Shown here in pieces: positions 40,501 through 43,500 of a stretch of 64,000 nt of DNA; position 1 is the first letter of the stretch; each line of letters starts with the position of its first letter. The position numbers and the translations under genes are program-made. Origin of the DNA: Owenia fusiformis (taxonomy: Eukaryota > Annelida > Polychaeta > Sabellida > Oweniidae); contig CAIIXF020000009.1 in NCBI GenBank assembly GCA_903813345.2, positions 18,005,759-18,069,758 on the forward strand, in the 5' to 3' direction. The notes under the pieces were generated by a model. The model was not told the origin of the DNA. It saw only the letters and a list, made by a program, of their open reading frames with translations, and did not search any database.

Positions 40501-43500
40501 TAAACAGCAATTAACAAAATCCGTGGGAGTTCTATGATAAATTGTTATCTAAAATAAATTAGGTCAAAATATCAATTTACACAAGAGTGAATATACATAT
40601 TTAAATAAACAAATAAATAATAAAAACACATAATATAAAATAATATGTTTAACAGCAGGTGATACTGACTATAAGGTGCTTGTAAACTATGTATCAAAGT
40701 GAATAATATTGATACATTCATAATACATGAAAATGTAAATTTTTCCTAGATGGTTAAGTTGATTACAGTTGGAAGTGAGATAATAAAATGTCAATAAACT
40801 GCTACCTGACTAAATGTGTACTATTCATCAGCAAAGGCAAAATGAAAATTGACAGCAATATTATGAAAACACACATTTAACAGACATTAATACTTGACAC
40901 TTGAAACAAGCTATAATATAGACCCAGATCCCATTTATGTTTTTGCGTTAAATATGTAGAACTTGTCATTTGAGCTTGGTATTGATTGTAGACAGTTTTA
41001 TTCTGTTTATGTTATAAGCAATGACAATTAGGGAGCTATGTATGTTTGTTATTTTAACTTGCACATTAATGGTATCAAGCTTTACATCTCACAGTGATGC
41101 AATCATTTGTTATATTTATAACTTAAAATCAATTTCTATTATTGTCTGCTTGACTAAGAATAAGCTCTTGGAGGCATTTATCTATAAAAAAGGTGTCATG
41201 TGACCGTATCTAACCAATTAACATCAAGCAGATTTCGTCACTCGAGACTTCAGAACCTTTGTGTTTCATCCTCCAAATGGAAGACTGTCCAATGCAAATA
41301 TTTCCACCGAGTCTCATTGTAAATATTTGTGTAGTGTACCCTTTGACATTACAAGATGATAATGAGCCTTTGATCCTTGATTTGCTGACATAGGAAGTGT
41401 AATAAGGCAAAAAGTGATCTAAATGTTTTTGAAAAAGTAAATAAAGTCTCTCATATGCCACCAAGGAATAAAACTGGCGATGCCTCAAGAGCAATAGCAT
41501 GTAAGACTATGTATACAGCATACCTCCACAACAGAGTCTTGAAAACCGACTTCCGTAAATGGAATACATGATTGCTGACAGCCAAGTTATGCTCCACACG
41601 AAACGGGGCCAAGATAACCCCGTCCCGGACAGGAAACGTTAACGAAGTGGCCTCTTTATCTACAAAATTGTACCAAATGACGTTTATTAGTTTATTTCAT
41701 TACCTCCACATTAATGTCTGGTAGACGGAGTCCTTTAAGTGGAAGTCGTGGTTGCTGACCGCAAGGTTATGCTGCAGGCGGAAGGGGTGCAGCACTATAC
41801 CATCTCTCACTTGGAACGTCAGCCTCAGTTCATCTGGGGCAGACTCTGTAGGATATACAATGTTGCCATAGAAACATAATTCCATGTATGATATACATAG
41901 TGCATAGAAACAAAACTCCATTTTTGAGGCATCTTCATGCATACAAGAATACAAAACAAATGTTATGAAAAATCTATTTATAATAAAATATTCTAGATAT
42001 TATTAACATTGCAATATGTATGTAGTTTCATTACATAAGAACATAATATTACCTTTTTTAATATTAATATTGGCTATATTGGGTTTGATATCTCCTTGTT
42101 GTTGTATACCTCCATGAGGGGGTGACATGTAGGGGGGTACGTTTGAACCCGGGGTCATGGGTGGGGTCGGATTCCCTGGGGGAGGGAGTGGTGAACACTG
42201 TTGATTATATATGGCAGGTGGCATATTAGGCTGAAAAAAACAATATAGTTCCTGTTATGTATAAAAGATGGCAGTATACAGATTTCATGGTTTTTAAGAA
42301 AATGTAATTATTCCATTCAAAAACTTTTATATTTAGATATTGTTAGAGACTAGGTACTATTCAAGATAATTATCTGAAATTGAAAATTGCATATCTAGTA
42401 TGTGAATATAAAACTCATTTGTCAGAATTACTAAGTCATTATAAACCTAATTGATACATTTCAATATATGACACAACATCGATATTACCAATAGGTTACA
42501 ATGACATGTCAACGTTATTCATTCACACCCAATACTCTGTATTTATTTCTAAAGAGGTGCCTAGATTAAATTCTAGCATTTCTAAATAGACAGGAACCCG
42601 ATCCTAATAAAGATTCCTCAAAGCTGAATTGATATTTGAACTATTTTTTTATAACATGACGAGAGGGATTTTTTAGATGATATTGTTTAATGTGATGTAA
42701 CATGAAATTCATAACTGATTCATAGATGTGACCACAACAGTCCGTTGGTGGAACATTCATCTCACACATGCACAGACAAATGGAGAAACAGACATAAATA
42801 TATAATAATACTCAAAGTATTCTTAAAATCCCTCCTCATTTTTGCCATTCATAGTACCATGAATAAAGATGATTTCTAGGTTCAAGTAATGAGCACATCC
42901 AATGAAAATGTTTCAATGTAACATATTATCAACATATAAACTCACTGTTGGGACTCCATTGTAGCCTCCATTATACTGTGCAGGTTGTCGATAATTGGGA
43001 CCTCCCTGACCAAACTGCCCCATTGACTGCCCCATTGCCTGATTGTATGGGGGAGCTGGGGGTCGACCTCCTGGCCCATATGCTGTGGGTGATGTCATGG
43101 GCTGTTGCCCTGGTTGGTACTGGGGCTTCATTCCTGGGCCCCCATATTGTCCACCATTAGGGTACTGTGGGTATTGCTGAAAATGAATCAATAATTGATA
43201 ATTATTATATTAGCAGAAGTATATGTAGACAAAATGTAGATGTATGTCTATGAATGTTATTGAACATGTCTCTGTGGTTTATATTTTGAGATTGTAAATC
43301 AATTCTTAAAAAAAGGCTTAAATTCTTTTAAATAAATATTCATAACATTTTTTTGAACAGATGAAGTAAATCAATCTGAAATGAAATAGATATATTCTCA
43401 CCCCTCTCATGGCTTGTTGCTTGTGTTGTATATACTGCTGGGGGTTGGGATATGGACCAGGTCGTCGTTGCTGACCCCCATACATTCCACTCACACTATT

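Follow-up and report, generated by a model that had tools for sequence, protein, structure and literature searches.

A tandem exon duplication in a ZMIZ gene of the annelid Owenia fusiformis: candidate mutually exclusive exons in the first part of the GBD-like domain

The duplicated exons and the protein they encode

Proteins of the ZMIZ family co-regulate transcription and have links to SUMO ligation and to BAF-type remodelling. A gene of this family lies on the reverse strand of the stretch of Owenia fusiformis DNA analysed here (64,000 nt, hereafter the window), and an initial annotation had proposed that two of its exons are adjacent, mutually exclusive duplicates. The relevant features are listed below in the order of transcription, the number 8 being that of the initial annotation.

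42053..42230, reverse strand: upstream ZMIZ exon of 178 nt, ending with the residues ...NINIKK and one base of the next codon (assigned from the frame and splice sites)
41704..41845, reverse strand: exon 8a, alternative 1, 142 nt, encoding a 40-residue segment (assigned from PF25527)
41660..41703, reverse strand: spacer between 8a and 8b, a 44-nt GT-AG intron
41524..41659, reverse strand: exon 8b, alternative 2, 136 nt, encoding a 40-residue segment (assigned from PF25527)
40255..40465, reverse strand: common downstream exon of 211 nt, encoding most of the remaining GBD-like domain
39769..39874, reverse strand: next ZMIZ exon
39295..39520, reverse strand: SP-RING (zf-MIZ) exon, assigned from the PF02891 match, the genome profile search and PDB matches
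38629..38936, reverse strand: following ZMIZ exon

The coordinates, lengths and splice sites initially given for the pair proved exact to the base: all exons from 42053–42230 to 40255–40465 have GT-AG borders, and 8a and 8b, both 1 modulo 3 in length, are in identical phase. Alignment also reproduced the identity of 28 of 40 residues between the two segments. A chance resemblance is excluded, because, 8b aside, the best ungapped match to the 40 residues of 8a in a six-frame translation of the 64-kb window has just 10 identities. When either exon is spliced alone, the frame stays open through the remainder of the domain and on through the SP-RING. Inclusion or omission of both breaks the frame, as had been predicted, with early stops no more than about three codons from the junction: a stop directly follows the junction-spanning codon when 8a and 8b are joined, and occurs after three residues when both are skipped. 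An mRNA retaining the 44-nt spacer likewise meets an immediate stop.

The spliced 8b product matches PF25527, named GBD-like_ZMIZ1_ZMIZ2 in Pfam, with 217.9 bits, followed by zf-MIZ (PF02891) with 82.5 bits, so that the architecture of the ZMIZ family, a GBD-like_ZMIZ1_ZMIZ2 domain and then an SP-RING, is present. On a shorter piece, PF25527 scores 192.8 bits for the 8a form and 189.6 bits for the 8b form. The SP-RING of the 8b product matches PDB chains of SIZ2, PIAS2, PIAS3 and SIZ1. Across the genome (498 Mb, 525 contigs), PF25527 has three matches over the cut-off, corresponding to 8a, 8b and the common downstream exon, and a fourth below it (E 1.84); a single ZMIZ domain gene was thus found over the cut-off in an assembly whose N stretches could hide another. 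One other zf-MIZ gene is present, on contig C10.

The two exons span approximately the first 43 of the 126 positions of the PF25527 profile. The two forms differ at 12 of the 40 aligned positions and at a few preceding residues, and the net charge of the segment is +4 in 8b and +1 in 8a. The duplicated segment had been assigned to a PINIT-like domain, a label that the sequence does not confirm. Pfam PINIT is unlisted at E values up to 10 or up to 1, in searches whose HMMER filters remove most matches with E values over about 0.1, and the PDB matches of the 8b product start at residue 154 of 267, close to the SP-RING. The domain by itself yielded no credible structure in the PDB (its single match has an E of 0.98), and HHalign against PIAS2/3, with shallow alignments of 3 and 2 rows, returned a non-significant probability of 0.1% for an alignment collinear over the whole length. 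The swapped segment, which makes up about the first third of the GBD-like domain, might take part in substrate selection.

Elsewhere in the window, a single-exon open frame of 575 residues (29908–31635) resembles by eye a BTB-Kelch (KLHL) protein. A short tandem repeat of about 2.4 kb has several open frames on both strands (61340–63814), and a second tandem repeat is also open on both strands (60024–60518). A Hox gene in the same genome carries the KLTGP tail that marks spiralian Lox5, which suggests a spiralian animal.

Selection on the two copies and age of the duplication

Over 39 codons, 8a and 8b differ at 42 of 117 nucleotides (64% nucleotide identity), the differences falling 14, 5 and 23 times on the first, second and third codon positions, respectively. 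Nineteen codons show silent differences and 12 residue-changing ones, while 8 are identical. The dN/dS comparison suggested in the initial annotation gave a dN of about 0.22 with saturated dS and conserved amino acids (NG86: dN 0.215, dS undefined; LWL85: dN 0.228, dS 13). The number of residues kept, 27 of 39, exceeds both the mean (14) and the maximum (22) of 20,000 random placements of the 42 changes. In a six-frame genome search, PF25527 scores 62.2 bits for 8a and 61.4 bits for 8b, with matches that overrun the exons by 7 and 31 nt. Because dS is saturated at low dN and the fit to PF25527 is equal, the sequence comparison supports well that purifying coding selection has kept both copies, although a recently disused exon would look alike.

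This evidence also bears on the alternative that one copy is dormant or decaying and only its partner is spliced. Both donors do depart from GTAAGT (GTAATG in 8a, GTATGC in 8b), though so does that of the adjoining 42053 exon (GTAATA); we consider this alternative very unlikely, since the open frame, splice sites and phase are intact in both copies at saturated synonymous divergence and the two exons fit the family profile equally.

Compared with a provisional human ZMIZ1 sequence, 8a has 31 and 8b 32 identical residues out of 40, more than the 28 that the two exons have in common. Given the divergence of the copies and their near-equal scores to the profile and to this human sequence, the duplication is, judging from these comparisons, old and neither copy looks degenerate. 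A simple three-taxon count with the same provisional sequence assigns 6.5 changes to 8a, 5.5 to 8b and 2.5 to human; 8a and 8b would then have split almost as early as they did from human, but faster change after the duplication also explains these values. DNA of relatives was sought as stray animal sequence in one scan each of bacterial/archaeal and viral contigs, where none of the 59 and 2 pattern matches, respectively, was confirmed.

The 44-nt spacer and the joining of 8a to 8b

The intron at 41660–41703 is 44 nt long and has, as originally reported, a CTAAT close to its 5' splice site, at intron positions 14–18 with the A at 17. The spacer has 25% GC and no GGG triplet. This CTAAT, inside ACTAATA, is its sole yTnAy motif, and places the A at +17 from the 8a donor and 27 nt before the intron end. 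The distance from the donor to the predicted branch point is therefore 17 nt, below a limit of about 50 nt that comes from mammals, the branch point itself being a motif. Approximately 50 nt between donor (5'SS) and branch site (BS) are required in mammals, where a distance of 35 nt abolishes assembly on the E1A pre-mRNA, and about 21 nt lie between the two helices of the human B complex (PMC6692369). Because the sole branch motif lies 17 nt from the donor, against these mammalian limits, 8a can probably not be joined to 8b, as far as the limit transfers and the branch point is rightly predicted.

The other introns in this part of the ZMIZ gene measure 207, 1058, 380, 248 and 358 nt. As a wider control, 122 introns were estimated from exon pairs of myosin, kinesin and dynein genes in the same genome, a limited sample of three families (78 myosin and kinesin introns, 44 dynein introns), and none is under 100 nt. 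Introns were counted where neighbouring matches were less than 4 kb apart and nearly continuous in profile positions, with no lower bound on the gap. Lengths were estimated from the ends of the matches; the three smallest, at 118, 126 and 133 nt by this estimate, were also read in the sequence, as 133, 126 and 133 nt. The rows kept were 80 of 92 for myosin (12 Mhc duplicate-exon rows dropped), 126 of 144 for kinesin (18 array rows dropped) and 66 of 76 for dynein (without 9 array rows and 1 row that overlapped); an earlier hand-picked, gap-filtered selection had comprised 68 of 92 myosin rows, 57 of 144 kinesin rows and 66 introns.

Two shorter candidates were discarded by eye. A 55-nt reading of the shortest kinesin intron was set aside, as the frame (...ILRSK / KTRKLWGKFSLIDLAGNERG) favours 133 nt, and a suspected 47-nt Mhc intron was rejected, the exon ending with ...GIDD and the next one starting with VEEM, for an intron of about 306 nt. 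At three loci with long matches that might hide tiny introns, inspection by eye revealed no intron of about 44 nt, and the stop-filled stretches there resemble longer introns or noise.

These observations make it hardly credible that the 44-nt intron is spliced and that the early-stop 8a-8b product acts, beside the two coding forms, as a poison form setting the level of ZMIZ. Inclusion of both exons does give an immediate stop, and a 43-nt intron in human ESRP2, which has a G-rich enhancer, does undergo splicing (PMC4463651). The A/T-rich ZMIZ spacer, by contrast, is devoid of G triplets, its branch-like A sits 17 nt from the donor, and no control intron approaches its length.

Exclusivity could instead depend mainly on competing RNA structures or repressor proteins rather than on spacing. 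Pairing of docking and selector sequences is described for insects (PMC5224494), and it has been suggested that competing structures originate when exons are duplicated (PMC9013439, PMC6071210). An ungapped search of 40466–42052, however, detected inverted repeats of just 11–17 nt and no long arms, and this alternative appears unlikely.

Other repeated exons were encountered in the same genome. On contig C2 (23266345–23269188; 146–2989 of the locus read), a kinesin motor exon occurs in 17.9 head-to-tail copies with a period of 159 bp, 97% alike, separated by GT...AG spacers of about 33 nt by eye, as short as that of ZMIZ; this array is a very young exon amplification. A piece of a dynein AAA_8 exon on contig C4 (3111545–3113183) recurs in tandem, with nine or more copies spaced by about 118 or 236 bp. 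The dynein and kinesin arrays hint that tandem repeats containing exons are a recurrent feature of the genome.

Known systems and proposed role of the exon pair

In alpha-tropomyosin, an unusually long distance separates the branch point from its 3' splice site. As proposed for ZMIZ, the duplicated exons of this different gene are kept apart by an unusual branch point that lies close to the donor (PMC7969005, PMC6692369), whereas in ZMIZ the entire intron is just 44 nt. Exons 4a/4b of OGDH, which encodes a metabolic enzyme, resemble the ZMIZ pair in that exclusivity is achieved by branch points near the donor (25–41 nt; PMC7969005), through a branch-point cluster in OGDH as opposed to a single motif at 17 nt in ZMIZ. 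With 57 of 629 human clusters (9%) under 50 nt (PMC5740500), exclusive exons enforced by spacing form a known class, as the initial annotation had stated, which includes alpha-tropomyosin, OGDH (PMC7969005) and human clusters (PMC5740500). Muscle myosin heavy chain clusters of protostomes also exchange one segment by means of tandem alternative exons (PMC3912159). The Mhc cluster in this genome (contig C9, 37985900–37994500) is a large alternative exon cluster with 13 open, divergent motor-exon copies by eye (TYSGLFCVVINPY...PPHLYSI) over 8.6 kb, in contrast to the close pair of ZMIZ.

Drosophila tonalli and vertebrate ZMIZ1/ZMIZ2 belong to the same family and have the SP-RING after a conserved domain. 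The tonalli isoforms are ascribed, in the available text, to promoters, splicing or processing and not to a duplicated exon, and exon 8 of human ZMIZ2 is skipped and not exchanged with a duplicate (PMC5924756). Literature searches, with most subscription papers and annotation databases outside their scope, found no report of duplicated exclusive exons in ZMIZ or tonalli, in line with the initial annotation, which knew of none. Matches for ZMIZ1 together with mutually exclusive exons deal with a circular RNA from ZMIZ1 or with other genes, and ZMIZ is unnamed in the main text of PMC9741552, PMC5740500 and PMC9013439. Both isoforms may already have been annotated automatically. The exclusive pair is thus ordinary in its mechanism and, as far as these searches reach, apparently undescribed in ZMIZ.

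Taken together, we propose that, very probably, one ZMIZ exon was duplicated in tandem long ago and the two copies are kept mutually exclusive by steric hindrance, with the frame as a second barrier, the expression of both forms being a prediction. Of the initial annotation, the reading as mutually exclusive duplicated exons is upheld by the anatomy, by purifying selection and by a spacer far below the estimated introns of the genome; the PINIT-like label is unconfirmed by the sequence. According to the model, U1 at the 8a donor and U2 at the sole good branch motif 17 nt away could not act together, and each pre-mRNA would join the upstream exon to either 8a or 8b and then to the common exon, while mis-spliced products would be cleared by nonsense-mediated decay. 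The two resulting proteins would differ where the GBD-like domain begins, ahead of the SP-RING, with 8b exceeding 8a by three in net charge. Some regulator choosing between 8a and 8b must exist. As a guess, the swap tunes the choice of transcription-factor or SUMO partners by ZMIZ.

A splice switch in a conserved domain would give a single-copy gene two functional states. It would offer a natural experiment on a little-understood domain, with 12 residues swapped in an otherwise nearly identical protein, and the 44-nt spacer would be a clean natural case of exclusivity enforced by spacing outside vertebrates. A broader scenario, which we regard as conceivable but on balance doubtful, is that the pair is ancient, spiralian or older, with one ZMIZ gene having two lasting isoforms of a chromatin/SUMO co-regulator, whose choice of partner depends on the charge that the exon contributes. 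If this were true, splicing would supply what vertebrates get from two paralogues, ZMIZ1 and ZMIZ2.
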